A DNA stretch of 64,000 nucleotides from Deferribacter autotrophicus (GCF_008362905.1 NZ_VFJB01000001.1:1-64000), one strand, 5' to 3'; shown: positions 10,141 through 63,418, counted from the first letter of the stretch. A program made the numbers and translations. Notes: a model not told the origin generated them from the letters alone.

Positions 10141-10213
10141 TATTTATCCTCCTAAAAAACTAACAAAACATAATTTAATCCAAGATTTCTCACTCATCAT
10201 TCAAACATTCCTA

Positions 10214-11302
10214 TTAAAACCTACCTCTCTTTCTTAGTCCCCCCTGCTCAATCATATTCCTTACTTCATCTGGATAAACAGCTCGGTTTATAGCATCTTC
10301 ATATGTAATTAACCCTTTACGATATAACTCATATAATGATTGACTCATTGTAATCATTCCATGTTCTTCTTGACCGGTTTGCATCATCGAATAAACTTGA
10401 TGAAGTTTATCTTCTCTAATTAAATTTCTTATAGCAGGATTTGGCATAAGAACTTCGCATGCCAAAACCCTACCTTTTCCATCAGCCCTTTGTATAAGCT
10501 GCTGACATATAACTCCCTCTAAAACAAATGATAACTGAGCACGTATTTGTGGCTGTTGATGAGGAGGGAATACATCAATAATTCTATTAATAGTTTGAAC
10601 GGCACTATTTGTATGCAGAGTTCCAAATGTCAAATGTCCAGTCTCTGAAACTGTTAAAGCAGCCTCTATAGTTTCCAAATCTCTCATTTCACCAATAAGT
10701 ACTACATCAGGATCCTGTCTCAAAATGTATTTTAATGCAGTTATAAATGACTTAGTATCCGCATGCACCTCTCTTTGATTAACAATGGCTTCTTTATGTG
10801 GATGCAAATATTCAATAGGATCCTCTATGGTGACAATATGAACTTTTTTCTCAGTGTTTATCTTATCTATCATTGCGGCAAGAGTTGTTGATTTACCACT
10901 TCCTGTAGGACCTGTTACTAATACTAATCCTCTTGGTTTATCACATAATGATTTTACAATACTAGGTAAACCAAGTTCTTCAAAACTCATTACCTGGTAT
11001 GGAATTCTTCTAAACGCTGCAGCTACCGCACCTCTCTGCATAAAAACATTAGCCCTAAATCGGCTTACCCCTTTTATTCCAAATGAAAAATCAAGCTCCC
11101 ATTCTTGCTCAAATCTTTTCTTTTGCGCTTCAGTCAAAATACTGTAACACATCTGTTTAGTCATCGAAGGGGTTAAAGGCTCTCCTTCAATTTTCATTAA
11201 TTCTCCATTAATTCTATACACAGGTTGAGTGCCAACCGTTAAATGTAAGTCACTGGCATTTAATTCAATCATTTTTTGTAACAATTCTTGCAATGAATAC
11301 AT
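10214..11302 (-). CDS. pilT: Twitching motility retraction ATPase PilT
   Basis: The 362-residue hexameric secretion ATPase powers pilus retraction. Walker A is GPTGSGKSTT near residue 130. The Asp box and Walker B region (DPDVVLIGEMRDLETI) and the His box (GHLTFGTLHTNSA) are intact. The N-terminal PAS-like domain with ASDLHLTVG is typical of PilT, and the length is normal. GGAGG lies 5 nt before the ATG. It is encoded 13 nt after pilB. Confidence 0.96.
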   Translation of the reverse strand: MYSLQELLQKMIELNASDLHLTVGTQPVYRINGELMKIEGEPLTPSMTKQMCYSILTEAQKKRFEQEWELDFSFGIKGVSRFRANVFMQRGAVAAAFRRIPYQVMSFEELGLPSIVKSLCDKPRGLVLVTGPTGSGKSTTLAAMIDKINTEKKVHIVTIEDPIEYLHPHKEAIVNQREVHADTKSFITALKYILRQDPDVVLIGEMRDLETIEAALTVSETGHLTFGTLHTNSAVQTINRIIDVFPPHQQPQIRAQLSFVLEGVICQQLIQRADGKGRVLACEVLMPNPAIRNLIREDKLHQVYSMMQTGQEEHGMITMSQSLYELYRKGLITYEDAINRAVYPDEVRNMIEQGGLRKRGRF

Positions 11303-11315
11303 GGTAACCTCCTAA

Positions 11316-37468: not shown

Positions 37469-38482
37469 TCAACCATTTTCTGTAACCTCTGTTAAATTTT
37501 TTAAATATTCTGGATCATATGGCCTACCGTTTTTTAATACACCAAATATTTGCCTTATCAATTTATTCGCTACTGCTATTATCGCCAATTTCTTCGCTTT
37601 ACCTGATGATAAAAGCCTTCTATACAAATTTGAACAAAATTTATTATACCGTATCGCTGACAATGAACATACAAACAATATCTTCCTTATATAAGCATTT
37701 CCTCTCCTTGATATATGTCCCCTTCCCCTTACAGATGTCCCAGATTCCCTAATAGAAGGACACAAACCTATATAACTAACAACCTCCTTCGCCCTCTTGA
37801 AATTACGAAAACACTCCAATTTGCCCAACACTATCGACGCTAACTTCATACCTACTCCAGGAATACTCATAACTAACTCATATTCCTCTCTATAACGACT
37901 TTTCAACAAAACCTCTAGTTCCTGCTCCAATTTCTTAATCTTGCTCTTATAGGCGGAAATTACATCTTTATAACACGATATAACCTCTTCTTGTTCATAT
38001 GGCAATTGGCTAAATCCCTCTATCTGATTATTCAATCTATTTATCTGAGATTGAAAATCCTCTATTGCTTTTAAACGACTATCTATCTCATAATATAATT
38101 CATCCTTAGGTTTAAATCTCCATTTATAACCATATTCCAGCCCATATTCCGCTATCAATTTGGAATCCGATTTGTCTGTCTTTGCCTTCCTTAAATTCAT
38201 ATCTGAATATTTCTTTATTGACATCGGATTAGCTACACTTACTTCGTAACCTAACTCCCTACTCAAATGGGTGGCTAATTTTAAATGATATACTCCTGTA
38301 CTTTCCATCATAAAAAGTACTTTCGACCAATCTACTCCTTTTACTTTCTTAAGAAAATCTTTAGTAAAAGATCTTACACTATTGCTCGTCTCGTAATACT
38401 TGTGCGTAGATCCATCATAAAAACTTATTGACAATGTCGACTTTGATACATCAATACCTACCACATTTTCAAATCTTCTCAT
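37469..38482 (-). CDS. IS110-family transposase (DEDD/serine recombinase)
   Basis: The 337-residue transposase appears intact. The N-terminal RuvC-like DEDD domain has VGIDVSKSTL, MESTGVYH and KTDKSDSKLIAEYG. A coiled-coil linker (~145-190) precedes the C-terminal Tnp_20 domain, with IPGVGMKLASIVL, GLCPSIRESG and RRGNAYIRKIL and its catalytic Ser. In this family recombination is guided by a bridge RNA made from the element's non-coding end. Confidence 0.95.
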   Translation of the reverse strand: MRRFENVVGIDVSKSTLSISFYDGSTHKYYETSNSVRSFTKDFLKKVKGVDWSKVLFMMESTGVYHLKLATHLSRELGYEVSVANPMSIKKYSDMNLRKAKTDKSDSKLIAEYGLEYGYKWRFKPKDELYYEIDSRLKAIEDFQSQINRLNNQIEGFSQLPYEQEEVISCYKDVISAYKSKIKKLEQELEVLLKSRYREEYELVMSIPGVGMKLASIVLGKLECFRNFKRAKEVVSYIGLCPSIRESGTSVRGRGHISRRGNAYIRKILFVCSLSAIRYNKFCSNLYRRLLSSGKAKKLAIIAVANKLIRQIFGVLKNGRPYDPEYLKNLTEVTENG

Positions 38483-47994: not shown

Positions 47995-48576
47995 TTAAAG
48001 GCTCAATCTAAACAATCCCTCAACCCTTAACGTCGAACCAGTAACTTTATCTTCACCTATCGATATAATCTTTACTAAATATTTGTATTTAGCCACATTT
48101 GAACCAGCACTTGGAGGAAAAGAAGCAACACCACCAGCACCGGCAATTGAACCTTGGTATTCTTTTATCAGATAAATTTTTATTTCATATTTTCCCTGTA
48201 TAAATTCAATCCAGTAATTGTCTTTTGACATCAACAAGCTTTTACAAGTATCGTTATTAGGATCAGATAGTATTAGGTATTTTTTTATATCAAAAGTATT
48301 TCCCAAACCACACACTTCATCAGGATCTGATACCGATCTTATGCTAATATCATTAAATGAGACAAATACCTTATCATAACTTTCAAAGTTTTTTAAAAGA
48401 TGAACAGCAATATCAACCCCAGAATTCGTAGCTTCTTTCAAGTTGGCGAATCTTTTAAATTCACCCGAAAACTTAGTACTGCTTGTTAAAACAAAATATA
48501 AAGATCCTACTAATAAAAGCAAAGCAACAGCAAATATCAATATAGTATTTAATATAAAGCCCCTGTTATTCATCAT
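47995..48576 (-). CDS. PilX-like minor pilin, cassette A
   Basis: The 193-residue protein starts MMNNRGFILN, followed by a hydrophobic helix. It carries a prepilin-type signal but has no Glu at +5, which is typical of PilX/GspK-type minor pilins. The C-terminal part is a soluble pilin-like domain with two Cys (near EVCG and TCKSL) that could pair. It is last in the cassette and overlaps the pilW-like gene by 4 nt. No sequence-level family assignment beyond position and signal is possible. Confidence 0.72.
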   Translation of the reverse strand: MMNNRGFILNTILIFAVALLLLVGSLYFVLTSSTKFSGEFKRFANLKEATNSGVDIAVHLLKNFESYDKVFVSFNDISIRSVSDPDEVCGLGNTFDIKKYLILSDPNNDTCKSLLMSKDNYWIEFIQGKYEIKIYLIKEYQGSIAGAGGVASFPPSAGSNVAKYKYLVKIISIGEDKVTGSTLRVEGLFRLSL

Positions 48577-49337
48577 AAATTCTCCAGATAAATGATATCT
48601 TCAATTATTATCCACCTATAATATGCTAAATTTCCTGATATTGCATAAGATGAGTTATCGATTGTGTAAGAAATTGTTTTACTTAAAGGAGTTTTTCTCC
48701 TATTACCATTTTGCACAATAAATCCCATTTTCAAAACTTTACTATTACTGTCATACACAAATTTCACATCGGCAACGCATTTTAATATCACATTATCATC
48801 CAATAACAAATTGTATGTATCTGCAGCACAATCGTTATAAGGCTGGTCTACACTTAATTTTATCGTTCTGATATAATAATATGGATCATCACAAACACCA
48901 TCATTATTGGCATCTCTGCACCTAATTAAAATATCACCTTTATTACAAAAAGTATCTGTAGCACTTAATTTTCCTTTCAATACCTTATTCTCACTCAATT
49001 CAACACAAGGAACATTCAATGTTTTTGTTCCAGAACATACTTCCCACGCTCCAGAATCTGTTTCATCACCAAATAGGGTATAAAATGTCAAGGTATCACC
49101 AATCACATTTACAGCATTGTCAACATTGTTTCTATCAATACCAAAACCCGCAGACCTTATAAGCTTATCAAGCTTCAAAACAGTCAATCTTATATCATCA
49201 GCAGTTTTGCTTACAGCAATCTGAACAGTCCCGCTTCTATAAAAAGTATTGTATGTAACATAGATAAAAGAAGAAATTATGACGAATAACCCCATTCCAA
49301 CAATAAGTTCTATCAGCGTCATTCCCTTTTTATTCAT
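48573..49337 (-). CDS. PilW-like minor pilin, cassette A
   Basis: This 254-residue protein has a class III prepilin signal, MNKKG followed by MTLIELIVGMG, with Glu at +5. The long C-terminal domain contains five or more Cys (EVCSGTKTL, NVPCVEL, TFCNKGDILIRC, GVCDDPYYY). Length and position between PilV- and PilX-like genes fit PilW, a tip-priming minor pilin. It overlaps the PilV-like gene by 8 nt. Confidence 0.78.
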   Translation of the reverse strand: MNKKGMTLIELIVGMGLFVIISSFIYVTYNTFYRSGTVQIAVSKTADDIRLTVLKLDKLIRSAGFGIDRNNVDNAVNVIGDTLTFYTLFGDETDSGAWEVCSGTKTLNVPCVELSENKVLKGKLSATDTFCNKGDILIRCRDANNDGVCDDPYYYIRTIKLSVDQPYNDCAADTYNLLLDDNVILKCVADVKFVYDSNSKVLKMGFIVQNGNRRKTPLSKTISYTIDNSSYAISGNLAYYRWIIIEDIIYLENL

Positions 49338-49710
49338 TTTTAGCCCTCACATATATCGTACCAGATATACTGTTTTCTTCATTGTAATATGGTTTTGTCC
49401 ATTTAACTGTTACTACCACCTTTTTAAGTTTCCCTATTGAACTGCTATCATCAATAACATTGATCGTATAATTGTAATCAGTGTTATCTATAGTAATCGT
49501 TCCATTATCGTTAGCTAGACTGTTAAAATCCATACTTTCTATTTCAATCAATTTCTTATTTAAAGCCAAATATGCTTTATCTCTGACTTCATTAATTTTG
49601 TTTATCTTAACAGCATTGATAAAAGCAGGCACAAGCCCGAGTATAGCTATCAAAAATATCAAAATAGCAATCATGAGTTCTATCAAGGTAAAAGCTTTTT
49701 TATTCAGCAT
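49330..49710 (-). CDS. PilV-like minor pilin, cassette A
   Basis: The 126-residue protein starts MLNKKA, then FTLIELMIAILIF. The residue before the cleavage site is Ala, where Gly is usual. The phrase AILGLVPAFINAVKINKI recurs, diverged, in the cassette B PilV. The start at 49710 has GGGA 8 nt upstream; an ATG two codons earlier is the alternative. It overlaps the FimT-like gene. Confidence 0.78.
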   Translation of the reverse strand: MLNKKAFTLIELMIAILIFLIAILGLVPAFINAVKINKINEVRDKAYLALNKKLIEIESMDFNSLANDNGTITIDNTDYNYTINVIDDSSSIGKLKKVVVTVKWTKPYYNEENSISGTIYVRAKNE

Positions 49711-50227
49711 GAACATTTCCCGTTTGATCTATTGTTATTTTTTTACTCAAAGAATATCCACTTACTGTAACGACAAAGGGCTGTGTCAAATTTATCCCGC
49801 CGGTAACATCAAAATTATAATTTGGCATCCCTTTTTTGTTAAATAGCACAAGCCCACTGATTAAACTAATATTGTCGTTTGTTGAAATCAAAAATTTTGA
49901 AGTATAATTTTCAATTTTAACAACATCTGTATCATCTGCAGGTGGCCAAGTTGTAGAACTATATCTGACAAGAGAATACCCGCTACTACTAAACCAAATA
50001 CCATATAGGTCGTATGAACAGTTATCAACGGGATCACATTCGACCCCTTTTAGTATTGATAATTTTTGCGCATCATTTATTAAAGAAATAATTTTATCCA
50101 CCGTTTCATTCAATTTAATCCTGTTTATAAATTTAGAACCAGCTATAAATGCAATACTTATCAGTATAACAAAGATAGTTATTACTACCATTAATTCTAT
50201 TAATGTAAAACCCTTATTTATCCTCAT
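49700..50227 (-). CDS. FimT/GspH-like pseudopilin, cassette A
   Basis: This 175-residue protein has the prepilin signal MRINKG + FTLIELMVVITIFVI and a GspH-like C-terminal domain with two Cys (GVECDPVDNCS). FimT-type minor pilins initiate pilus assembly, and some bind DNA. It starts 3 nt after the PilY1 stop. Confidence 0.8.
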   Translation of the reverse strand: MRINKGFTLIELMVVITIFVILISIAFIAGSKFINRIKLNETVDKIISLINDAQKLSILKGVECDPVDNCSYDLYGIWFSSSGYSLVRYSSTTWPPADDTDVVKIENYTSKFLISTNDNISLISGLVLFNKKGMPNYNFDVTGGINLTQPFVVTVSGYSLSKKITIDQTGNVHAE

Positions 50228-50230
50228 AAT

Positions 50231-53200
50231 CTATCTCATAATCCTAAATAAAAGCTTACTTGATACATCTTCACCTTTTTGTTTCTGTTTTATGATGGTG
50301 CCAACAGATGTCTGTATTAACTTAACATATTCCCCCTTTTCTTCCATTGGCGTAGCTGTAATACCTTCTCCTATAGGTGGTGCACCCACTCCCAAATCAA
50401 GACTTTTTATAAATGTAATTTTCTGTTCAATATTACCCTGAGTATCTGTTGTTATGCTAATATTTTGGTTTTCTTGCAAAAACATAGGTTGTGGTCCTGG
50501 CGTACCACTCTTGTAATACATAGCATGCAGATTTGTTGTACCACCATAACTACACAAATCATTGTTTGGAGTAAACGTAAGTACATCAACAATTGAACCA
50601 GCAATAAATGGTTGGGTAAATCCTCTTTCCCTATCTCCAAGTCTGTAATACCATCCAGAGTAGCCCAAGCCATCACTACTCACAGGAGTAGTCAAAGCAT
50701 TAGCAAATGCCTCAACTGATGGTGTCACACCATTTAATGTCTCAGTAATAAGCAAATCCCCAGTAGTTTCAGTCACTATGGGATAACCTTTATCACAGGT
50801 GTATGTTAAACTTGTTAAATCTAATCTTGCATCACCACACTTTACACCCAAACAAAAACACTCTACTTTTGAAATATTCGCTTCAACAACAGCATCGGTT
50901 GAATCATAAAGGTCATTAAAGCTCAATTTAAAATTAGAAGAAGTCTTCCAAACACCGTCGGAATCTTTAATTCCAACAATATATTGAGATAAATTGTCAA
51001 CTTTATCATCGGTATTTAAAAATCTACCTGTAACAAAATAAAGCCACAATTTACCATCATCATCAATAGTATTAGCTACTTTACTGAATATTGGCCGTTG
51101 TACATCAAATACTGCTTGTAAATCAGCAACTTTCAAACTTGCTATATCTTTATATCCAGTCGAATCACGAAGATTAAGAAAATACAATTTTCCAATCTGA
51201 CTTGATGCACCACCATAAGAGCCAAACACAACCATATCAACCTGATAATCATGATCCACATCAAGGGTTTCAACATCACCAATTGCAACTTTTGTATCAA
51301 CTGAAATCTGTTTAACTAACACACCAGTTTTAAGATCCAAAATGAAAATATTTGCAGAAGAAACAAAATTTGAGCCTTCAGGATTTAAAGGACCACTCCC
51401 AAAAATCAAGTACCACTCCCCTTTAGATGCAGGTTCTCCTTTTCTTATCACACCAGGAAAAGATAAAGTCAAAGAATAGTCAGGCAATTTATATTCCCAC
51501 AAAACCTTAGGATTTAATGGATCTGTAACATCAATGGCAAAGACAGATGACGAATAATCATAATTTCCATCATTATCAATGTCTATCGGCTTACCCCCAA
51601 ATCCCATCATACCAATAAGAAGAGTTCTCCAAGAATCTGATTTATTAACATCATCACCTATAGATGCATCAACAAGCATAAAACGATAATCTACCTTTGG
51701 AACATGACAATCTTTACCCTCCTCATAATACCATTTAAGATATGGCAATACATTTGTTGGTATAAATGCCCACAGTTCTTTACCTAAGGTTATTGTATTG
51801 TTTTCAACAACATTATTAACCTCTGCCTCATAATTAAGATCATTACTACTTTGAATCTTACCACTAAAAAAAGCATGGACCATACCATCGTTTGCACCAA
51901 CAAAAACTACATTAGCCCGATTTCTTACAGTTTCAGAATTTATAAAACTATAATATGTCTGGTCTCTATAAATAATATCATACTGATTCACCCTGCTATC
52001 TTTCAAAACACGTGGTGTTGAGCTAATAATATCACCCAATTTATAGACGTTTCCGTATATTTCGCTTGATGTAGAATTGATAAAATGCCTACTTCTATAT
52101 GTCGTATCAGCTGGAAAATCATATCCCCTTATAAACTTCATAAGCTTTACTGTATCAGTGGTAGTCATATTCCATATAGATGCTAAATAGTCTACAACAT
52201 TAGTGTCAGTTGGATTAAATAAAGTTTTTGTATTGTTATACATCAAGAATATGTCACGATTGTCTGTACTGAGGTTTTTTAAATATTCAGATGCACTCCA
52301 AATAGGATTCAAATCTATTAACTCATATGGTTTATCAGTATCTGTAATTTCACATTTATCAGGAATTAAATCAGCATCAGCATCGTCAATTTTAAAACCC
52401 ATCGTTTTAGCGTAAATATCCAAAAACTTAAAAATCAATATCTTATCATCTGTCAGTGATAGCTTATCATCAGTATTTGTATCTTCTCTAATATTTTCTT
52501 TGTCATCTAGGAAATACGTCCTTACATCACCTATCCAGCTTATTTCATTTCCAGAGTTGTTGTCATACAATGCTGGATAATAATAAGCCTGAAATAACAT
52601 TGAAGATTCTCTGTTCTCAGTAGAAACGGTTGCAATAGATGTTCCAGATGATGCTCTTCTTAAGATATCACTAAAAATTGCTTCAAGTTTTTCCTTTAGC
52701 TCTCTGGCGTCTTTAGCACTGTAAAATGTATCAGGCAAACCGTTTCCATCTTGATCCCAATCAGGTTGAGAAGCTGGTAAAGGTTCACATCCACTTCCTC
52801 TACCATCACCAGCATCATCCATATTACATGAATCATCAGGATATCTTGAATCTGCACCGAAAACATTCAAATCATCAAGCGTTGTTCCTCCTGGCCAATC
52901 CATACCAGATACATTTTTATCAAAAGTACCATACATCGCCACATTTTTCAAAGACTGCTCACCAGTTCCCCCCAAAAACATGCCAAGTGTATATACAGCA
53001 TCTATCTTAACAAACACATTGTCTTTGCTTCTAACAGCTCCAATATGCATTTCCCTTGCAGGAACAACAGGATCAGGCGAATTACCATTTGAGTCAAGTT
53101 CAGCAATATCATTAGAAGGGGTATTCCACTGACCATCAGAAGCAAGTATCACGTAATTACTTGAACAAGGAGCAAAATTACATTGCAATCCCGTTCCTTC

Positions 53201-54169
53201 TCCATTAGTACAAATCCATAATGGATCTTTAAAATGATTAGATTCAATTGAGCCATCGTCTGGATCTAAACCACCATACTGCGGATCATTTTGTAAATAA
53301 TAATTCCAAACATCCCACATTGCTGGACCAGATGGTGTTGCCCCACCTACATCCACCGTATTAATTGATGTAATTAAATTTTTGTAAGGATATATGTCAT
53401 CAGTACTGTTAGCCGTTAAAAAATCACCGACATATACGCTTCTTCCATTACTAGTAATACCATCTCCGGCAAAAAACATTATACCAATACGAGGTCTTAA
53501 ATCTTTTTCCTTCAATTTGTATAAAACAGCATCCATTATTCCATGATGATTAACATTATCATAAACTAATGACTCTATTTTTACATTCCAATGTGTTTTA
53601 ATTATACAACTATCTCCACTACATGCAATTTCAGGATCACATTTTTGAGTATTACCAGTAGCACCATTTGGACAAGAATCTGGCACACCACCAGTCATAG
53701 CCCAACGAAAAACATCTATTCTAGCTAATATCCAATAATTTAAGCAGTTTCCAGAATATACTTTTGATGTATCTAAACAATCTTCATTTGTATCTGGCCA
53801 CCACCAGCTATTCCAGCAAGCTTTTATTATTCTATTTCCAGAGCTATCTAAATAAAACGCGTCGGGAGATGGACAACTTGAAGCCGATAGAGTAGTTTCT
53901 GACCATACTCCATTTATTTTTTTATAATTTTTTTCAGGATCAAAAAAACCTTCATAAACAACAGAACTATCATAGTTTGGATCTAAATAAGCATCCCAGC
54001 TCATACTTCCACTAACATCAAGAGCTATCATAACAGTTGGTGGTACAACTGCACTGAAAGTAGGTGGAATATATGTATAATCCTGACAACTATTTTGTGA
54101 ATAAACATTTAGAGAAAATAAAAACAAAATGGAAATTTGGAATAACAAAATTTTATATATACTTTTCAT
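50231..54169 (-). CDS. PilY1-like pilus tip adhesin with VWA domain, cassette A
   Basis: This 1312-residue secreted protein has a signal peptide (KILLFQISILFLFSLNVYS). The N-terminal von Willebrand A domain (~45-500) has a complete MIDAS (MIALDVSGSMS at D51; GGATPSGPAMWD). The C-terminal PilY1 beta-propeller (~700-1200) has VFVGANDGMVHAFFSG and LWAFIPTNVLPYL. A calcium-loop-like DVDHDYQVDMVVFG lies near residue 980. There are many Cys, mostly in the VWA half. PilY1 caps the pilus with the minor pilins and acts in adhesion and surface sensing. The first gene of the cassette overlaps its start by 4 nt. Confidence 0.92.
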   Translation of the reverse strand: MKSIYKILLFQISILFLFSLNVYSQNSCQDYTYIPPTFSAVVPPTVMIALDVSGSMSWDAYLDPNYDSSVVYEGFFDPEKNYKKINGVWSETTLSASSCPSPDAFYLDSSGNRIIKACWNSWWWPDTNEDCLDTSKVYSGNCLNYWILARIDVFRWAMTGGVPDSCPNGATGNTQKCDPEIACSGDSCIIKTHWNVKIESLVYDNVNHHGIMDAVLYKLKEKDLRPRIGIMFFAGDGITSNGRSVYVGDFLTANSTDDIYPYKNLITSINTVDVGGATPSGPAMWDVWNYYLQNDPQYGGLDPDDGSIESNHFKDPLWICTNGEGTGLQCNFAPCSSNYVILASDGQWNTPSNDIAELDSNGNSPDPVVPAREMHIGAVRSKDNVFVKIDAVYTLGMFLGGTGEQSLKNVAMYGTFDKNVSGMDWPGGTTLDDLNVFGADSRYPDDSCNMDDAGDGRGSGCEPLPASQPDWDQDGNGLPDTFYSAKDARELKEKLEAIFSDILRRASSGTSIATVSTENRESSMLFQAYYYPALYDNNSGNEISWIGDVRTYFLDDKENIREDTNTDDKLSLTDDKILIFKFLDIYAKTMGFKIDDADADLIPDKCEITDTDKPYELIDLNPIWSASEYLKNLSTDNRDIFLMYNNTKTLFNPTDTNVVDYLASIWNMTTTDTVKLMKFIRGYDFPADTTYRSRHFINSTSSEIYGNVYKLGDIISSTPRVLKDSRVNQYDIIYRDQTYYSFINSETVRNRANVVFVGANDGMVHAFFSGKIQSSNDLNYEAEVNNVVENNTITLGKELWAFIPTNVLPYLKWYYEEGKDCHVPKVDYRFMLVDASIGDDVNKSDSWRTLLIGMMGFGGKPIDIDNDGNYDYSSSVFAIDVTDPLNPKVLWEYKLPDYSLTLSFPGVIRKGEPASKGEWYLIFGSGPLNPEGSNFVSSANIFILDLKTGVLVKQISVDTKVAIGDVETLDVDHDYQVDMVVFGSYGGASSQIGKLYFLNLRDSTGYKDIASLKVADLQAVFDVQRPIFSKVANTIDDDGKLWLYFVTGRFLNTDDKVDNLSQYIVGIKDSDGVWKTSSNFKLSFNDLYDSTDAVVEANISKVECFCLGVKCGDARLDLTSLTYTCDKGYPIVTETTGDLLITETLNGVTPSVEAFANALTTPVSSDGLGYSGWYYRLGDRERGFTQPFIAGSIVDVLTFTPNNDLCSYGGTTNLHAMYYKSGTPGPQPMFLQENQNISITTDTQGNIEQKITFIKSLDLGVGAPPIGEGITATPMEEKGEYVKLIQTSVGTIIKQKQKGEDVSSKLLFRIMR

Positions 54170-54462
54170 TTTATTCCCCTCTCAAAGTTCGAAGTCATCT
54201 CTCTAAATTCCTTTTTACATATATTTTCCTCAACAAGAAAAGCTACACTATCACCAACCTTCAACTCTCTTAGAATACTTTTTTCGGCAAAATACACTTT
54301 CTTTCGTCCAACACAATTGCCAGCATTAACATTCACGATGGCATAGTCACGCTTTAACTCAACAATTCTACCCTTGAGTAAAAAATTATCTAAGGAAAAC
54401 CCCTTTAAACCAACAAATGAAAAAAATAAAATGAAAATAAATAGCATGAATAATCTCATCAT
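54166..54462 (-). CDS. Small exported protein preceding PilY1, cassette A
   Basis: I do not recognise this 98-residue protein. It has a signal peptide or N-terminal anchor (LFMLFIFILFFSFVGLKGFS), then about 70 residues of predicted beta structure (GRIVELKRDYAIVNV, KVGDSVAFLVEE) with two Cys that could form a disulfide. GAGGT precedes the ATG. The 4-nt overlap with PilY1 implies coupled synthesis, perhaps as a chaperone or assembly partner. Confidence 0.65.
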   Translation of the reverse strand: MMRLFMLFIFILFFSFVGLKGFSLDNFLLKGRIVELKRDYAIVNVNAGNCVGRKKVYFAEKSILRELKVGDSVAFLVEENICKKEFREMTSNFERGIK

Positions 54463-54482
54463 TCACAACCTCACGTATATAC

Positions 54483-54557
54483 ATACTTATAATTAAGTAT
54501 ATCACATAATTTTGACAATTAAAAATATTTATTTTCCAATTAAATTAGGAAATAAAT
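54483..54557. promoter_or_regulatory. Intercassette region with two inverted repeats
   Basis: The gap 54463-54580 separates cassettes B and A. ATACTTA/TAAGTAT (54483-54489 with 54494-54500) and ATTTATTTTCC/GGAAATAAAT (54527-54537 with 54548-54557, one bulge) are its only features. It may hold a partial terminator for cassette B and a separate promoter or operator for cassette A. Confidence 0.45.
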
Positions 54558-54580
54558 CGAAAGAAGCTAACTTGTTTTAA

Positions 54581-55198
54581 TCAATAATAAAACTGCCATT
54601 GTTTCAATTTATCATCCCAACGACAGATCCTAAAATTCCCAGCCTTGCTCACTGATATTGCATAGCTTTCAAAACCATCTGACAAATAAATCGAACCATT
54701 ATTGATAGCAAACCCATAATCATCCATTTCCAAACAAGATTTTCCATTACAAGGGATATGATCTATAATATTAAAAGAAACATCTTTTGAAGGAGAAGTT
54801 CCATTATTGTAACAGGCAGATTTGTTGACACCAGACAACTTTGAAAAAGTTACTTTGTTCTTCAGTTTATTGGATAGCAAAAGTTCAATTTCATTGCTAT
54901 CAAAATCTTTATCATTGTCAAAATCTTCCCATTTATAGGCAAAATATGAATTTTGATCTTCATCAAAAACAACATACACCATCTTTTCTATCAATTTACC
55001 ATTTACAACACTATGAGCACCCAAATTTACCGCAAGAGTTTGAATATATTTTAAATCATCATAGAGTTTATAAACCTCTTGTTTTATTGAATATTTACGA
55101 TTAATAGTTTTGTATGAATATATAGCTATTCCAAATAAAATAGAGATAATCGACAACAAAACAACCATTTCTATTAAGGTAAACCCTTTTTTATTCAC
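54581..55198 (-). CDS. FimT/GspH-like pseudopilin, cassette B
   Basis: The 205-residue protein has the prepilin signal NKKG + FTLIEMVVLLSIISILFG and a C-terminal domain with several Cys (SACYNNG, HIPCNGKSCLEM, FRICRW). It uses a GTG start at 55198 that shares one base with the PilY1 stop. It is the last gene of cassette B. The domain differs from the FimT-like protein of cassette A. Confidence 0.8.
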   Translation of the reverse strand: MNKKGFTLIEMVVLLSIISILFGIAIYSYKTINRKYSIKQEVYKLYDDLKYIQTLAVNLGAHSVVNGKLIEKMVYVVFDEDQNSYFAYKWEDFDNDKDFDSNEIELLLSNKLKNKVTFSKLSGVNKSACYNNGTSPSKDVSFNIIDHIPCNGKSCLEMDDYGFAINNGSIYLSDGFESYAISVSKAGNFRICRWDDKLKQWQFYY

Positions 55199-58100
55199 TA
55201 TCTAATTCTCCATGAATACACTTTCACAAGAAGCTTACCAGATCCAGTATTATTAGCATTTTGATTAGCACTGCCCATTTTATATACATTACCAGTAAAT
55301 GAAACAGCCACAGCTATTCCAGAATCAACATCGATGTTACCAAGTTCAGCACCTTCAGTATCAATGGACTTTAAAAGATTACCCTTTTTATCTAAAATAA
55401 CTATTCTTCCAACGGTTGTTTCCAATTCATCAGGTTTTTTCTGTTTAGAATAACCAATACCAGTACCAAAATAGATATTTCCGTATTTGTCAACAGTAGG
55501 TGACACCCATATTTTTTCTCCTACACCAAGCTCATATTCCCATAACAATTTTGCTGAAGTTCTACTTATTTCTACAGCATATAGATGATAGTTTAATGTA
55601 TTTGAAGCAAACTCAGCTCCACCTGTGCCAAATATTACAGTGTTATTATAAATCGCTACACCTGAACCTATTGGTTCATTTGCCCCATTTGGCACGACAT
55701 AAGCTGGCACATCCTCATCATTATCAACAATTATCGATCTTCCAGTTTGTGCGTCCAATACCCATAGTCTACCAGCCATATCACCAAAAACAACATAATC
55801 AATATTTCCATTGTTATCTAAATCCATCAATGATGGGATAGCTGGCGTTTCATTTACATTAACTGCATCACCTGTATATAAACTTTCAAATTTCCATTTA
55901 ATATCCCCTGTTAATAAATCTAAAGCAAAAGCATTGATGCCATAACTACCGTTCACATTACCTGTCCCATTATCCAGAATCTTATCCTTGAAATTTGAGG
56001 TTAAAAATACATAGTTCACAATCTTATTACCAATATTCAAAGAACCAATGGCAACCCCCTTTGAATTGCCCATGTTTTCTGCCGGATACATTTTTTCCCA
56101 TAAAACCTTAGGATTGTAAGGATCTGTTATGTCAAGAGCAAAAATTATTCCTTGATTTAACGATTTAACCATTGCTGTTCCAACCAAGATCGTTCGCCAT
56201 TCTTTTACACCATCGCCATCAATGTCCACAAAAAAATCTCCAACCGCAGGTGCTCCATCAACGCTAACAACAGCATCCCTGTTGTTGTCATTGAATGGTT
56301 GATCCTTCAGATACGGAAGTAATGATGAAGGTATAAATGCCCATATTTCTTTACCATTACCTGCGGTATATTTATTATTTGCAGCATCCCAGGATCCTCC
56401 GTAAAAAGCATGCAACATACCATCATCAGCACCAGCATAAATAATTTTATCCCGATGTTCCTCACCTGGGATTAGTGGTGTGCCACCAACAACTGCAGGG
56501 GTTGAGTTGTGAATCCCCCACAACTTGTAAGTTATCTCTCCAGTACCATTAATATTCGTTAAAGAAGCACCAAATCTGCCTCTCACGGTGTTTATAAGGA
56601 CTTTTGCCTCATTTTCTGTTGTAACATTAAGCTTGTTTAACAACGCCAAGGTATTGTTCAAATCAAAACTGATTTTATTGCTACCATCGTTTGTAAAAAT
56701 GTATCGATAGCCGTTATCTTTTGATGGAGCATAAAGATTACCTGTTGTTCCAGCTAATGGTATACTGTTTGCAGCGTCCCAAAGCAAATACGTTTCATTA
56801 TCTGTCAAATCAAAAGCCTTAAGATGCCCCCTGTGTGCAGGAAATTCAAAAGAACCTATATACATTATCCCACTATCTATTATGGGAGATGAAGTAACAT
56901 ACTCTTTAGAAATTACTGTAAACTGCAACCCCAGAACAGTGTTCAAAACATATCTTATTCCACAGGTATTTGATTTACTTTTATTTTTCTGAGACCAATT
57001 CACATTGCATGTGCTAATTTCTCCCGAAGTGGCAGAACTATCCAAAGTGATATTTGTAGAACAACTGTAAGTATAATTAGGAATGTTTGAAGTCAAATCT
57101 TTGCACAAATCTTTATTCCCAGAAATTTGATTTACATCTTTGATGTCTAATTTTAATCCACTGGTATTGATATGAACTACTAAAGAATCGATATTTACTT
57201 TGCTTACACTATCATTTTTAATATAAATTGTTTTAAGTTCATTGTTTTTCTTTAAAGTTGCATCATCCAAAATTATCTTTAACTCACCATTATCAGCATT
57301 ACCATAACCACCATTAACCACATACCAAGCAGTTACGGATTGAGAAGTATTATAATTAACAGTGAAAGTTATATTATCATTATTATTTAAAGCATTATCA
57401 AATTTTAAATCAACTTCTAAAATTTGAGAACCATTATTTGCCCCTTGACATTCAATATATTTATGTCCAGCCAGATATGCAACATATCCTTGAGTAGGAC
57501 TTCCATTAATTCTACCACCAACAAAATAATCAAAACCAGGGTTATAACCATTGTAAGCACCATCAATATCATGAATGAATCTAACTACAGAGTTGTTATA
57601 ACTATAATTTTTGGACTGATCTGGTCTGAAATTGTGAACATGTCCACCCAAAGCTTCAAAATCCCAACCTGCACATTGATTCAAATAGAAAGCAGGATCT
57701 TCAAAAGCCATATAATTTATATCCATGCTACCCATATTAGTTTCTATCCGGCTTATGGTGTAATTATCCGAAGTCAACCATCCACCATATTGCTGAGTTT
57801 CATTATTAACTCCACCACTTGGTGATCCTTCTATACTTTCTATTGAAGCACACTCCAAAAATGCAGATTTACCACTTTTAACAAATGATCTTAATTTTGA
57901 TAAAACATTAGCTCTGCGTGTAGCATCAGGAATTTCTTTTTCTATTATCCAGTGAGGTGCCCAAAACAACTGATAATCATCAAGCTTGCCATTAATAATA
58001 TCATCTATCGTCAAAACGTCATAAACAAGATTTGTTTTATAACCCAATCCCGAAGCCATTAGATAATCTATTAAAACATTGGTTGCCCCCTGGCCAAGTA

Positions 58101-58677
58101 CCGCAATTCTTGGAGGTAAATTTGCAAGCACTTTTTCAACTGGAGCTGTAAAATTTACCAGTGCTTCATGTTTTTTTACATTTGTATATTTGTTTATTAT
58201 ATCTATAACTGTCGGTGTAATATCTTTATAATCGATAACAAAAGGACCTCCTCTATAATCGATTACATGAGCATTCAACGTAACATTATCTATTACCCTG
58301 GCAGGTGGATCTATCAAACTGTCATCGTTTATCTTTTTAACAGGAGCTGTGCTAACACCATCTATTGTAAAATCAATTTCATTCCGAAGTTTTTTAGTAG
58401 GATTTATAACCCAGTAAATAGGCACTCCACTTTGTAATAGTTCATAAACCAAACCATAAGCTTGAAAAAGGCCAGCATCGTTTTTATCTGCATCGCAAAC
58501 TCCAGCAGGCGCATAAGTTGAATCTATATTCGGGTCATTATTAGGTTGCCAGCAAGGATCCATAGGAATAATTATAGAACCTTTTGAAAAAGTTTTCTGC
58601 CCAGCCAAAGTATTAAAAGAAAAAACAACAAATATAAAAAATAAAACGACAAAATTTAATATCTTAACTCTTCTCAT
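55198..58677 (-). CDS. PilY1-like pilus tip protein with Rossmann/amidotransferase-like N-terminal region, cassette B
   Basis: The 1159-residue secreted protein has a signal peptide (LNFVVLFFIFVVFSFNTLAG). Unlike the cassette A protein it has no VWA domain. Residues ~60-290 have a class I amidotransferase-like Rossmann pattern (PPRIAVLGQGATNVLIDYL; YQLFWAPHWIIEKE; LRSFVKSGKSAFLECASIES). A beta-rich Cys-containing region (~390-600) follows, then the PilY1 beta-propeller (~600-1150) with IYAGADDGMLHAFYGG, IWAFIPSSLLPYL, and calcium-type loops DIDGDGVKEW and DLDNNGNIDYV. GGAGG precedes the ATG. It lies 2 nt after the PilX-like gene. Confidence 0.86.
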   Translation of the reverse strand: MRRVKILNFVVLFFIFVVFSFNTLAGQKTFSKGSIIIPMDPCWQPNNDPNIDSTYAPAGVCDADKNDAGLFQAYGLVYELLQSGVPIYWVINPTKKLRNEIDFTIDGVSTAPVKKINDDSLIDPPARVIDNVTLNAHVIDYRGGPFVIDYKDITPTVIDIINKYTNVKKHEALVNFTAPVEKVLANLPPRIAVLGQGATNVLIDYLMASGLGYKTNLVYDVLTIDDIINGKLDDYQLFWAPHWIIEKEIPDATRRANVLSKLRSFVKSGKSAFLECASIESIEGSPSGGVNNETQQYGGWLTSDNYTISRIETNMGSMDINYMAFEDPAFYLNQCAGWDFEALGGHVHNFRPDQSKNYSYNNSVVRFIHDIDGAYNGYNPGFDYFVGGRINGSPTQGYVAYLAGHKYIECQGANNGSQILEVDLKFDNALNNNDNITFTVNYNTSQSVTAWYVVNGGYGNADNGELKIILDDATLKKNNELKTIYIKNDSVSKVNIDSLVVHINTSGLKLDIKDVNQISGNKDLCKDLTSNIPNYTYSCSTNITLDSSATSGEISTCNVNWSQKNKSKSNTCGIRYVLNTVLGLQFTVISKEYVTSSPIIDSGIMYIGSFEFPAHRGHLKAFDLTDNETYLLWDAANSIPLAGTTGNLYAPSKDNGYRYIFTNDGSNKISFDLNNTLALLNKLNVTTENEAKVLINTVRGRFGASLTNINGTGEITYKLWGIHNSTPAVVGGTPLIPGEEHRDKIIYAGADDGMLHAFYGGSWDAANNKYTAGNGKEIWAFIPSSLLPYLKDQPFNDNNRDAVVSVDGAPAVGDFFVDIDGDGVKEWRTILVGTAMVKSLNQGIIFALDITDPYNPKVLWEKMYPAENMGNSKGVAIGSLNIGNKIVNYVFLTSNFKDKILDNGTGNVNGSYGINAFALDLLTGDIKWKFESLYTGDAVNVNETPAIPSLMDLDNNGNIDYVVFGDMAGRLWVLDAQTGRSIIVDNDEDVPAYVVPNGANEPIGSGVAIYNNTVIFGTGGAEFASNTLNYHLYAVEISRTSAKLLWEYELGVGEKIWVSPTVDKYGNIYFGTGIGYSKQKKPDELETTVGRIVILDKKGNLLKSIDTEGAELGNIDVDSGIAVAVSFTGNVYKMGSANQNANNTGSGKLLVKVYSWRIR

Positions 58678-58679
58678 AA

Positions 58680-59234
58680 CTAATATCCTCCAATATTAAA
58701 TGAAGAAGGAGTAACATTTGCAATATCGCTCAAACCACTTTTCGTGGAAACATTGGTCCTCTTGACATTTTGTCCGTATTGCTTGTAATTCTGGCTTGCA
58801 GAACTATCATAAAAAAGAATTGTCTCTATAATGGTCTTTGTACCATCATTCGCAGCAGCTTCTGATAATACAAAGACCCTCAAATCACTATCCCTACCAT
58901 AATCATTATCACCATCGTTGTTATCTTTAATATAAATTTTAACGTTTACATCATTAATCGTAGTAGCTAAATTAGAAAGTTCATTATATTTATCTGTGCT
59001 GTTATCAAGTAAAGATGACCAATAATTGGTGGATACATAATTATCATTCAAATATTTTCTGGCATTTTCTATCCCACTATTTGCAGCATAATATGTTTTA
59101 TTCTTAACAATAACTGCTCCAGAACTTTTTGTAGTCCTTATAATCCTATAACTCACTATTGAAGAAATTATAAATACCCCCAACAGCAGACCTAACATTA
59201 CAATCAGTGCCATCCCTTTGTTATTCATACGCAT
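58680..59234 (-). CDS. PilX-like minor pilin, cassette B
   Basis: The 184-residue protein begins MRMNNKG, followed by MALIVMLGLLLGVFIIS. The +5 residue is Val and not Glu, as in PilX/GspK types. YYAANSGIENARKYL just after the helix is a PilX N-terminal-domain hallmark. The start was placed at 59234 (ATG 59228 also possible); the longer frame to 59255 would begin inside the pilW-like gene. Confidence 0.78.
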   Translation of the reverse strand: MRMNNKGMALIVMLGLLLGVFIISSIVSYRIIRTTKSSGAVIVKNKTYYAANSGIENARKYLNDNYVSTNYWSSLLDNSTDKYNELSNLATTINDVNVKIYIKDNNDGDNDYGRDSDLRVFVLSEAAANDGTKTIIETILFYDSSASQNYKQYGQNVKRTNVSTKSGLSDIANVTPSSFNIGGY

Positions 59235-60105
59235 AATTTTTAACCTCAATAACATTTTCTAAATAAACTCTCTTATAAGAATCGTTAAATGGACCATAAA
59301 CAGTATCAGCTAAAATATAAGATTTGCTATCCTTATAGTTTTTGTAAATTCTCTGAGCTCTAACAAGTAAAAAAACCTTTATAGCTCTTATCTTTTCTAT
59401 AGTTGAACCTGAAGGATTGTTTACAATGCTTCCATCTTCCAAAATATATTGAAACTGCAAGCCATCAATAGAATCGTCGATAATAGATATTTCATTAAAA
59501 TCGTTAAGTTTTAATGCTCCATCATCTACATAAAATTTTAATGCCCTAACTCCTAAAACAGCTGTATTCTTAGGTACCTTTTCTTTTAGGAGTCGCTGCA
59601 AGGTAATGGTCTTACCTGTAATATTTGTTATTTTATAAACCACTTTATGATTTTCAAATATTAGATGGTTTTTACTTGAGTCTATTTTAAAAAAATTTCC
59701 AAAATCGTTATCCACAAGTATAATATTACTGTTGGATTTATAATTTTGGACAACATGTATTTCAGGTAAATTTGATACTGCCTTTACAATAGTTATATTA
59801 TCACTACCGTTATTACCACTAAAATTTTCAGGCACAATAGAATAATCATAAGTTTTACCTTCTATAATTAATTTGCTGTTATCAGAATATTTGGGAATAG
59901 AAGATACCATAAAACCAGCAGTACGTATTTCTTTGGTCAAATAAAGCATTATTCTATTTGCCCTTTCATATAAATCGGAGTTTGTAATCTCATTGATACT
60001 TTTATTTTGAAAATTTATATAAAATGCAAAAACAATGGACCCAATAATCCCAAATAAAAATATCGTAATTAGAAATTCAATTAGGCTATATCCACTTTTA
60101 TTCAC
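59221..60105 (-). CDS. PilW-like minor pilin, cassette B
   Basis: This 294-residue protein has the prepilin signal NKSG + YSLIEFLITIFLFGIIG and a long C-terminal domain. TKEIRTAGFMVSS is a PilW-type phrase, paralleled by DKLIRSAGFG in cassette A. The GTG start at 60105 shares a base with the PilV stop and is preceded by GGAG. It has no Cys, unlike its cassette A counterpart. Confidence 0.78.
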   Translation of the reverse strand: MNKSGYSLIEFLITIFLFGIIGSIVFAFYINFQNKSINEITNSDLYERANRIMLYLTKEIRTAGFMVSSIPKYSDNSKLIIEGKTYDYSIVPENFSGNNGSDNITIVKAVSNLPEIHVVQNYKSNSNIILVDNDFGNFFKIDSSKNHLIFENHKVVYKITNITGKTITLQRLLKEKVPKNTAVLGVRALKFYVDDGALKLNDFNEISIIDDSIDGLQFQYILEDGSIVNNPSGSTIEKIRAIKVFLLVRAQRIYKNYKDSKSYILADTVYGPFNDSYKRVYLENVIEVKNYAYE

Positions 60106-60458
60106 TAATTGCTCCTAACCAAACTCATACTTACCCTGTAATCTTTCGATTTATATTTCCAACTGACAGTTACATTAATTTGTTTCTGATAAGTGTTTAA
60201 ATCAATCACATCTGTTGTTACCTGATACACATTATTATCAACAGAAACATTGTCCATGCTATTAGCAAGACTGTTGAAATCTATAACTGATAAACTATCT
60301 ATTTTTTCCTGTGCGATATTCACAGCTACATTTCTAAGATGATTCATCTTATTAGCATCAACTTGTTTAATCAAAAGCGGAATTAAACCGAGAAAAGCAA
60401 TCAAGAAAATTGTGAGAGCTACAATTAGTTCTATTAAAGTAAATCCATTTTTTTTCAT
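60105..60458 (-). CDS. PilV-like minor pilin, cassette B
   Basis: The 117-residue protein has the prepilin signal MKKNG + FTLIELIVALTIFLIAF. FLGLIPLLIKQVDANKMN parallels the cassette A PilV. It is first in the cassette, with a strong inverted repeat just upstream of its weak ribosome binding region. Confidence 0.8.
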   Translation of the reverse strand: MKKNGFTLIELIVALTIFLIAFLGLIPLLIKQVDANKMNHLRNVAVNIAQEKIDSLSVIDFNSLANSMDNVSVDNNVYQVTTDVIDLNTYQKQINVTVSWKYKSKDYRVSMSLVRSN

Positions 60459-60507: not shown

Positions 60508-60770
60508 TCATTCAAAAATAAATAACTTATGAATTATACCAATCAACAACTATTATTATATTTTAACCCTATTAGTACTAACTGTCAATTTTTCTACCTT
60601 AATAATCTAATATAGTTTAAATAAAATGCTCAATTCATTTATGAATCTTAAAAAATTTAATGTGTTACTATCATTATATCTTCTGCAATATTCTCAAAAA
60701 AGTCATAATATTTTTTTAAATTGATTTTAAATAAATAAAAAAAATAATACTTTTTATTATCACACAAAAC

Positions 60771-60801: not shown

Positions 60802-60809
60802 AGCAGCTT

Positions 60810-60883
60810 GCCCCCGTAGCTCAGGAGGATAGAGCACAGGATTCCTAATCCTGGTGTCAGAGGTTCGAGTCCTCTCGGGGGCG
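60810..60883 (+). tRNA. tRNA-Arg (anticodon CCU)
   Basis: The 74-nt cloverleaf is complete. Acceptor GCCCCCG pairs with CGGGGGC, with discriminator G. The D stem is GCTC/GAGC, and the anticodon stem CAGGA/TCCTG holds loop TTCCTAA (anticodon CCT). The T stem AGAGG/CCTCT holds TTCGAGT. CCA is not encoded. It reads AGG codons. Confidence 0.96.
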
Positions 60884-60910
60884 TTCTTAATTATCAGATA
60901 GTTACAGAAT

Positions 60911-60964: not shown

Positions 60965-61239
60965 TTAGGCGATTAAATCGCATTGAAGAAATATTAATTT
61001 TCCAAAGACAAAAATATTATGTTCATCAGAGTATTTTGGAAAAGAATATTTTGAGTTTTTATAATACCTTGGCCTGTTCTTTCTTTCAAATCCATTTAAA
61101 AAGATTATCTATTTTTGCTGTTAATACCTGTTAAAGTCCCGAAAAATCCCCAGTAAAAGGCCCTTAAAAATCCCCACCTAAAAATGTTAACTTACCTCCA
61201 AAAAGCTTGGAGGTAAGAATACAAGTGTTGGGGGTAGAA

Positions 61240-62670
61240 ATGTATTACACAGTAAAGACCTTACTATCACAAGGCAAAAATATTTCTGAAATATCCAGGG
61301 AACTGGGTATTGACCGTAAGACAGTCCGTAAGATAAGGGACAAAGTGAAAGACGGTAAAGTAGAAACACCCAAATTTTCAAGAGTAAGTGTTTTAGAGGC
61401 TTACAAAGAAGAAATAATTGAATACCTCTCAGAAGGTTTAACAGCAGTATTAATCCATCAGAAACTAACAAGAGACCATGATTTATCCGTAAGCTACAGT
61501 TGTGTGAAAAAGTATGTTAGGAAATTAAAAGGCCCCGATGGAATTTATGTCCCTTTAATTTCCCCACCAGGCGAAGAAGCCCAAGTAGATTTCGGTTACA
61601 TAGGTTATTTTTATGATAAGTCAGTTAAGAAAAAAGTAAAGTGCTGGATATTCTGCATGGTGCTATCTCATAGCAGATATAAATATTATGAGATAGTTAG
61701 AAGTCAGGACGTAGAAACTTTTTTAAGATGCCACATTAATGCATTTGAATATTTTGGAGGAATTCCAAGAGTAATCAAGATAGACAACTTAAAATCTGGA
61801 GTATTGAAAGCAAATTTTTATGAACCTGTAATTCAGAAAGAGTATGCTGCAATGCTTGAGTATTACGGCAGCAGTTCTTTTGCCTGTAAGGTCAGATATC
61901 CGCAGGAAAAAGGGAAAGTAGAAAGCGGAATTAAATATGTTAAGAATAACTTCTTCAAATCTATCAAAGAAAGAGATTTAGATAAAGTAAAAATTATTTT
62001 AAGAGATTGGCAGGAAAATATTTGCAATAAGAAAATCCACGGCACAACTAGAAAAGTTCCATATGAACAATTTATGGAAAAAGAGAAATCCTGTCTATTA
62101 AGCATTCCAGGTAAGAGATATGAGGTTTATGAAGTTTCAGAAAGAATTGTAAACAGATATTCTCATATCACTTACAAGTACAATTATTATTCCGTGCCTT
62201 ATAAATATGTGGGTAGTAAGGTAAATATTCGCAGTAATGGCAGCATACTGAAAATCTACAATGAAAAATTTGAGGAAATAGCGGTTCACACAGTATCTAA
62301 ATTAACTGGAGAATTTATAACAAATAAAGCCCATAATCCGAAATTGACACAAAGTGACTATAAAAGAAAATCTCTTGAAATAGGCCTTAACACTTTAGAA
62401 TTTTATGAAAGGTTAAAGGGAGAAAAACCTCGTCATTATCACAGAATGATGCAGGGAATATTCAGTCTTTTAAAAGTTTATGACAGAGAAATAATCGATT
62501 TGGCTTGCAAGAGAGCTAATAAGCACAATTCAATAAGTTATTTATCGGTTAAAAAAATATGTGAATCAGGGATATATTCTATTTCTGAACCTGAGGAATC
62601 AGTAAAATGTTCAGGGTATGGTCATAATTTGCAAATCTATGATGAGATATTAAATGGGAGGATCAATTAA
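61240..62670 (+). CDS. istA: IS21 transposase IstA
   Basis: The 476-residue DDE transposase has a helix-turn-helix at the N-terminus (NISEISRELGIDRKTVRKIR) and a second DNA-binding helix set (~60-110). The integrase core has catalytic D in EAQVDFGYIG, D in RVIKIDNLKSG and E in EKGKVESGIKYV. The C-terminal beta-barrel contains YSHITYKYNYYSVPYKYVG. The ATG at 61240 was chosen, with GGGGGTAG before it. It appears intact. Confidence 0.95.
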   Translation: MYYTVKTLLSQGKNISEISRELGIDRKTVRKIRDKVKDGKVETPKFSRVSVLEAYKEEIIEYLSEGLTAVLIHQKLTRDHDLSVSYSCVKKYVRKLKGPDGIYVPLISPPGEEAQVDFGYIGYFYDKSVKKKVKCWIFCMVLSHSRYKYYEIVRSQDVETFLRCHINAFEYFGGIPRVIKIDNLKSGVLKANFYEPVIQKEYAAMLEYYGSSSFACKVRYPQEKGKVESGIKYVKNNFFKSIKERDLDKVKIILRDWQENICNKKIHGTTRKVPYEQFMEKEKSCLLSIPGKRYEVYEVSERIVNRYSHITYKYNYYSVPYKYVGSKVNIRSNGSILKIYNEKFEEIAVHTVSKLTGEFITNKAHNPKLTQSDYKRKSLEIGLNTLEFYERLKGEKPRHYHRMMQGIFSLLKVYDREIIDLACKRANKHNSISYLSVKKICESGIYSISEPEESVKCSGYGHNLQIYDEILNGRIN

Positions 62671-62671
62671 A

Positions 62672-63418
62672 ATGCAAGAAATTATAAATAAATTAAAGAA
62701 TTTTAAGTTATCCGGTATGGTTAAATCTTTAGAATCCAGGAATCAATATGCCATAGAGAATCAATTAAGCTATCTTGATTTTCTTTCACTCCTTCTTGAA
62801 GATGAAGAATCAAACAGACAGAGCAACTCATTTAAAAAAAGATACTCTAAATCAAAGCTGGATTCTTCTAAGACTCTTATGGAATATGACTTTAGTTATC
62901 AGCCTAAATTGAATAAAAAAGAAATACTTGATTTAAGCAGTTGCAGGTTTATTCAAGAGAAGAAGAATATAATCTTTATGGGCAATCCTGGAGTAGACAA
63001 AACTCATCTTGCTAATGCGATAGGTTTGGAGGCTTTAAAAAAAGGATACAAGGTCTTATTTATACATTCTAATGATATGGTTAATAAACTTATATCTTCA
63101 AAAGGTGACGGTAGTTATTTTACTTTGCTCAAAGAATTATTAAGTGTGGATTTGTTGATCATTGATGAGGTTGGTTTTAAGAAAATAGCCCTTAATTATG
63201 TAGATGAATTCTTTGTAATAATTAGACGAAGGTATGAAAGCAAATCAATCATAATCACAACTAACAGGAACTTTGAAGAATGGGGCAACATATTTGGTGA
63301 TGTTGTATTGGCTTCTGCTATTATAGACAGGCTTGTACATCATTCTTACATTTTTAAAATTGAAGGTAATAGTTATAGAATTAAAGATTTACAAACTGTT
63401 AAAAATAGTAAAATATAA
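62672..63418 (+). CDS. istB: IS21 helper ATPase IstB, Walker A altered
   Basis: This 248-residue AAA+ protein of the DnaC/IstB type helps IstA choose and join target DNA. The N-terminal helical region (KLKNFKLSGMVKSLESRN, LSYLDFLSLLLEDEE) and Walker B LLIIDEVGF are normal. The Walker A loop reads GNPGVDKTHLA, where GNPGVGKTHLA is expected: the Gly before the invariant Lys is Asp (codon GAC, a one-base change from GGC). ATP binding may be impaired. GGGAGG lies 10 nt before the ATG, and the gene follows istA by one base. Confidence 0.93.
   Translation: MQEIINKLKNFKLSGMVKSLESRNQYAIENQLSYLDFLSLLLEDEESNRQSNSFKKRYSKSKLDSSKTLMEYDFSYQPKLNKKEILDLSSCRFIQEKKNIIFMGNPGVDKTHLANAIGLEALKKGYKVLFIHSNDMVNKLISSKGDGSYFTLLKELLSVDLLIIDEVGFKKIALNYVDEFFVIIRRRYESKSIIITTNRNFEEWGNIFGDVVLASAIIDRLVHHSYIFKIEGNSYRIKDLQTVKNSKI

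Follow-up and report, generated by a model that had tools for sequence, protein, structure and literature searches.

Several complete minor-pilin/PilY1 gene sets are known to accompany a single type IVa pilus (T4aP) machine in Myxococcus xanthus, which has one major pilin, one machine and three such clusters, of which cluster 1 or cluster 3 alone is sufficient (PMC7541494), and in which the ratio of PilY1.1 to PilY1.3 is regulated, altering what the pili bind (PMC9109919). More than one minor-pilin/PilY1 set per genome also occurs in Geobacter, a metal-reducing lineage, although the paper that mentions these sets (PMC3543383) neither describes a tandem arrangement of tip cassettes nor names an N-terminal module. 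Here we analyzed a 64,000-nucleotide stretch (the window) of the Deferribacter autotrophicus SL50 genome, in which two complete minor-pilin/PilY1 cassettes adjoin each other on the minus strand at positions 47995-60458. As with M. xanthus clusters 1-3, several complete FimU/PilV/PilW/PilX/PilY1 sets appear to go together with one T4aP machine (PMC7541494, PMC9109919, PMC13190605); the PilY1 proteins of both species share a propeller and differ in their N-termini, and one M. xanthus set is likewise thought to be horizontally acquired. The D. autotrophicus sets differ from those of M. xanthus in lying side by side on one strand, in having a PilY1 N-terminus that is neither a von Willebrand factor A (vWFA) domain nor DUF4114, and in a putative donor from another phylum, where a relative of the whole cassette was traced. 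The two sets consist of intact genes, are of different ancestry, encode PilY1 proteins with different N-termini, and occur in a genome with one T4aP motor set and one locus read as mannose-sensitive haemagglutinin (MSHA)-like. We think it probable that this one T4aP machine carries two alternative tip complexes, as in M. xanthus, and infer that both sets would be expressed, form separate complexes, share the machine and meet different ligands.

The array comprises eleven open reading frames (ORFs), all open at the coordinates in Table 1. In the order of transcription, cassette 1 (54581-60458) reads PilV1-PilW1-PilX1-PilY1-1-FimT1, and cassette 2 (47995-54462) reads small exported protein-PilY1-2-FimT2-PilV2-PilW2-PilX2; adjoining genes overlap or sit 2-3 bp apart, save for a single 118-bp gap between FimT1 and the small-protein gene. 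Global identity between the two cassettes is 41% for PilV, 24% for PilW, 22% for PilX, 30% for PilY1 and 24% for FimT. The original prediction had described two consecutive, non-identical and strongly diverged cassettes of differing gene order, with only one motor set in the window, and had considered that one cassette might be defective; the description is borne out, and both sets are intact. The prepilin methylation motif is present in PilV, PilW and FimT of both sets (PF07963/TIGR02532 above cut-off), while PilX1 and PilX2 are assigned by homology together with a prepilin-like N-terminus, identified by reading, that lacks Glu5. Both PilY1 proteins score above the PF05567 cut-off in the genome search and match the Pseudomonas aeruginosa PilY1 structure (3hx6); in hmmscan, PF05567 matched PilY1-2 only, and PilY1-1 matched a PQQ propeller family below cut-off. 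The PF05567 profile also misses several Deferribacterales PilY1. The D. autotrophicus genome paper lists FHQ18_00230-00275 among its pilin-assembly clusters and leaves PilY1 unmentioned (PMC6896113); judged by position, these genes are probably the tip-cassette region.

The two cassettes have different relatives. The phylum comparison covered 51 genomes including the host, and PilY1-2 has relatives at 54-63% identity in G011, G013 and G014 (G and L labels denote the genomes and loci compared); for PilY1-1 no full-length counterpart occurs in the 50 other genomes, the matches being short propeller stretches only. A scan of genome contigs found full-length PilY1-1 matches at 51-52% in two Deltaproteobacteria metagenome-assembled genomes (MAGs; L072 and L073) and at 36% in Geomonas paludis, and in all three the same cassette, in the same gene order, surrounds the PilY1-1 relative. 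Identity of the L073 cassette to cassette 1 is 40% for PilV, 37% for PilW, 41% for PilX, 52% for PilY1 and 33% for FimT. In the Geomonas order, 5 of 141 genomes contain PilY1-1 relatives, as do 28 of 136 in the L073 order, and Geobacterales besides Geomonas also have relatives of cassette 1; because both phylum searches drew the same sample, the L073 order and Geomonas share a phylum. Many relatives in the L073 order are only 600-660 amino acids long and consist of a propeller without the N-terminal module, which was not found as a separate gene in 13 genomes having such propeller-only PilY1.

In the PilY1 tree, PilY1-1 falls within a Desulfobacterota group of 14 rows (support 100/99), and PilY1-2 groups with G011, G013, G014 and G049 in a Deferribacterales clade (support 100/100); forcing the two to be sisters costs 351 log units (approximately unbiased (AU) test, p-AU 1e-141). 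Sisterhood is also rejected for PilW (p-AU 5e-82), FimT (4e-5) and PilX (5e-5), so that duplication of the cassette is ruled out by AU tests in four of five genes, with PilV borderline. Acquisition is thus favored over duplication by the phylogeny, a comparison that the original prediction had proposed. By its gene-for-gene, in-order matches, cassette 1 is a member of a Desulfobacterota cassette family found in Geomonas and a second order, with PilY1 identities of 51-56%; the relatives of cassette 2 mark it as the type native to Deferribacterales, whose PilY1 is of the vWFA kind. The guanine-plus-cytosine (GC) content of cassette 1 is 28-35%, equal to that of the host, versus 52-62% in the Desulfobacterota loci; since its GC has become the host's, cassette 1 is probably long resident. 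A recent acquisition was rejected on composition, which bears no trace of recent foreign origin, and so was a plasmid origin, as tblastn of PilY1-1 gave no match in 72,556 plasmid records. PilY1-1 is not decaying, because it keeps the family-invariant residues and its terminal branch is no longer than in intact relatives.

The two PilY1 proteins also differ in kind. PilY1-2 carries a motif resembling a metal ion-dependent adhesion site (MIDAS; DxSxS...T...D), with DVSGS at residue 51 followed, by reading, by ATPSG and ASDG, although no Pfam VWA match was obtained even at E 10. In PilY1-1 the MIDAS pattern is absent, with no DxSxS in the first 250 residues, and Pfam DUF4114 gave no match up to E 10. 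Residues ~25-540 of PilY1-1 have no Pfam match, and PDB sequence searches with them returned no meaningful match; within residues 1-600, more than 50 positions are invariant in 12 homologues, including His242, Cys276, His405 and Cys410. A survey of PilY1 domains identified no conserved N-terminal domains apart from vWFA and DUF4114 (PMC13190605). The PilY1-1 N-terminal module is, by these comparisons, neither of the two and so far undescribed. In the C-terminal part, structure comparison of PilY1-1 returned propeller folds, and a motif scan predicted calcium loops in both proteins (DLDNNGNID, residues 952-960 of PilY1-1; DVDHDYQVD, residues 970-978 of PilY1-2), the columns of D952 and D960 being invariant among 14 aligned sequences. 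The different binding or sensing functions suggested by the original prediction are plausible, because the two N-termini differ in kind.

The full-length AlphaFold model of PilY1-1 (mean pLDDT, the predicted local distance difference test score, 48.7) was used for the propeller only. A model of the N-terminal module from a six-row alignment reached a mean pLDDT of 57, with residues 276-416 below 50. In Foldseek its best match was the DJ-1/PfpI-type structure 3cne, at a weak E of 0.013, with several glutamine amidotransferase (GATase) domains lower down. PilY1-1 resembles DJ-1/PfpI and class I GATase folds (3cne, PhzE) in an alpha/beta core at ~190-283 and in the invariant Cys276, which is placed as at a nucleophile elbow and lies at a strand-helix junction in both low-confidence PilY1-1 models; it differs from them in lacking any Pfam match, in the weakness of the best fold match and in the low pLDDT of its model. 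We therefore treat this resemblance as a lead only. It is a speculation, to which we give little credence, that an enzyme-like PilY1-1 module at the pilus tip might act chemically or in a redox-sensitive manner on the touched surface, beyond binding it, and that such tips might cross phyla as whole cassettes.

Counted on PilB, PilT and PilC, the window contains one T4aP motor set, with PilB at 11316-13013, PilT at 10214-11302 and PilC at 8932-10140. The 65-amino-acid PilA, reported together with PilA-C elsewhere in the genome (PMC6896113), was located with PilA-C at C3:326498 (locus L003); CATTGCGAGGAGCGTAAGCGACGAAGCAATC-like repeats in both orientations lie upstream of pilA (L003:700-1400). 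Beyond the window the genome has two further PilT-like genes and, on contig 8, a second PilB-like gene. The contig 8 locus (L067, G000:C8:76000-95999) has its own ATPase and pilins, and its reading as MSHA-like draws only on N-terminal sequences; one of its frames, 1200 amino acids long, includes a masked stretch of N. The second ATPase with its own pilins would allow cassette 1 to serve another filament such as this pilus instead of the T4aP, but the contig 8 locus includes its own minor pilins, cassette 1 adjoins the T4aP cassette and not contig 8, and we know of no MSHA system that uses PilY1. We consider such a role for cassette 1 highly improbable.

Adjacent cassettes recur outside D. autotrophicus. 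Five cassette 1 relatives carry tandem cassettes in one orientation: in L072, L073 and G642 a second cassette of FimT-first order adjoins the cassette 1 relative, in G646 another set lies upstream, and G678 has three minor-pilin/PilY1 sets in a row on one strand (L204/L231/L232). In G281, L074, G551, G553 and G453 no second cassette was found within the flanks compared. The recurring tandems argue for a lasting coexistence of cassettes. Most Deferribacterales have a single cassette, ordered small protein-PilY1-FimT-PilV-PilW-PilX, and close relatives differ in which one they hold. Between G011 and G012, members of one genus, the flanks are 91.8% and 90% identical in DNA and the identity ends within ~40 bp of the cassette; no DNA match exists inside it, and identity between the encoded cassette proteins is 25-34%. 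For G014 and G016 the pattern recurs on the upstream side, with a 93-94% identical flank, and D. autotrophicus and D. desulfuricans carry different cassette classes. Congeners with 89-94% identical flanks thus hold unrelated cassettes at the same site (comparisons L055/L062 and L056/L059), which argues that tips are exchanged as units. On a G013 contig, a complete G014-like cassette (65-74%) is followed 3.5 kb on by a truncated G011-type PilY1 (Table 1), although the arrangement may be a MAG chimera; a gene resembling a class II ribonucleotide reductase lies beside the truncated gene and the G014-type cassette.

Because relatives show cassettes replacing each other, the strongest rival to two alternative tips is cassette turnover, in which D. 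autotrophicus would be caught between gaining a new cassette and losing the old one, with one set redundant or about to decay and one tip in use. The in-place replacements between congeners fit this explanation, as does the G013 contig, where a complete cassette and a truncated PilY1 of another type are what a superseded cassette would leave. However, the two sets of D. autotrophicus have all their genes, with open frames and family residues kept, the host-like GC of cassette 1 suggests long presence, and tandem sets persist in several Desulfobacterota. Turnover is accordingly judged unlikely.

For two alternative tips, the explanation we prefer, the sequence is compatible with one transcript or with two. 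A promoter-like TTGACA-17-TAAAAT (11/12 consensus) lies at 60560-60588 on the minus strand, ~100 bp upstream of PilV1, and is by itself no proof of function. In the gap between the cassettes (54463-54580), promoter-like matches are near chance level, no terminator-like site was found and the hairpin is unremarkable against shuffles (z -1.24). With promoter and terminator signals in the gap no better than chance, the cassettes may be co-transcribed. The original prediction of alternative pilus tips is partly supported: the presence of two complete, intact sets beside one T4aP motor set agrees with it and M. xanthus offers an experimental precedent, but the cassettes may share a transcript. Some further points weigh against it: both cassettes may be co-expressed, neighboring genera usually have one cassette, and the test of PilV sisterhood is borderline (p 0.052), so that PilV may have been exchanged between the two sets. 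Co-transcription from one strand across a 118-bp gap without a detectable terminator, and PilV1 and PilV2 as the closest pair (41%) with only borderline separation, would suit mixed tips, either a composite of minor pilins from both sets that varies in its PilY1 copy alone, or one complex with both PilY1 proteins. Yet the divergence of PilW, PilX and FimT between the cassettes exceeds 75%, and published tip models seat one PilY1 on one PilX (PMC13190605), so mixed tips appear improbable.

Cassette 2 opens with a small exported gene, and most Deferribacterales cassettes have a small exported gene in this position, with recognizable homologues in G011, G013 and G014. The cassette 2 protein recalls TfcP (PMC8833165), which is likewise small, exported, encoded in a PilY1 cluster (M. 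xanthus cluster 1) and conserved with it. TfcP, however, contains CxxCH and belongs to the c-type cytochromes; because the cassette 2 protein lacks CxxCH, the two are alike in position only. A galE-like gene adjoins cassette 2, and its relative (68%) also adjoins the cassette in G006. Near the cassettes, the window further contains an IS21-type transposase (61207-63418) and an IS110-type transposase (37469-38482); a tRNA-Arg (CCT) gene (60809-60884) separates the IS21 element from cassette 1.

Table 1. Features of the tip-cassette array, the motor set and the truncated PilY1 of G013 (window positions unless a contig is given; id, identity; aa, amino acids).
Feature	Position	Strand	Evidence
PilV1, minor pilin, first gene of cassette 1	60105-60458	-	PF07963 E 7.6e-8; TIGR02523 type_IV_pilV 31.5 bits, below cut-off; 40% id to L073 PilV
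PilW1, minor pilin	59221-60105	-	PF16074 PilW E 5.9e-7, above cut-off; 37-38% id to L072/L073 PilW
PilX1, minor pilin without Glu5, GspK-like N-terminus	58680-59255	-	N-terminus NNKGMALIV; 41% id to L073 PilX
PilY1-1, 1159 aa, signal peptide by eye, C-terminal beta-propeller	55198-58677	-	PF05567 above cut-off (genome search); 3hx6 E 4.8e-11
PilY1-1 N-terminal module, about residues 25-540	57058-58605	-	alignment; no Pfam family
FimT1/FimU1, GspH-like minor pilin, last gene of cassette 1	54581-55198	-	PF07963 above cut-off; 33-35% id to FimT downstream of PilY1 in L072, L073, G678
Gap between cassettes, 118 bp, sole intergenic gap >10 bp in array	54463-54580	-	
Small exported protein, 98 aa, first gene of cassette 2	54166-54462	-	30-35% id in G011, G013, G014; no CxxCH
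PilY1-2, 1312 aa, vWFA-type MIDAS and C-terminal propeller	50231-54169	-	PF05567 E 5.3e-13; 54-63% id in G011, G013, G014
FimT2/FimU2, minor pilin	49700-50227	-	PF07963 E 1.2e-8; TIGR01708 gspH below cut-off
PilV2, minor pilin	49330-49716	-	PF07963; TIGR01707 gspI below cut-off
PilW2, minor pilin	48573-49337	-	PF07963; 38-41% id to PilW of G011, G013, G014
PilX2, minor pilin without Glu5	47995-48576	-	N-terminus NNRGFILNT; 41-43% id to PilX of G011, G013, G014
T4aP motor set PilC, PilT, PilB	8932-13013	-	PF00482, PF00437, PF05157
Truncated G011-type PilY1	G013:C54:18208-21259 (L057/L058)		924 aa, 96% id to G011; own small exported gene alongside

In the mechanism that we propose, cassette 1 would have come whole from a Desulfobacterota lineage and been placed upstream of cassette 2 in the same orientation. 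Each FimT/PilV/PilW/PilX set would bind the PilY1 of its own cassette by way of the conserved propeller and prime the PilA filament, common to both sets, for assembly by PilB, leaving that PilY1 at the tip, so that the cell could make pili with either tip and use them to attach to or sense surfaces of different kinds. For an Fe(III)-reducing deep-sea thermophile with a short, e-pilin-like PilA, this raises the question whether the second tip recognizes minerals or partner cells. If this explanation is true, PilY1-1 would bring the kinds of PilY1 N-terminus, of which the 2026 survey names two, to three, and tip specificity would become testable through comparison of closely related species. The type IV pilus tip would then be an exchangeable unit, with a constant machine and whole five-gene cassettes that are swapped at fixed chromosomal sites among close relatives and also pass from phylum to phylum.

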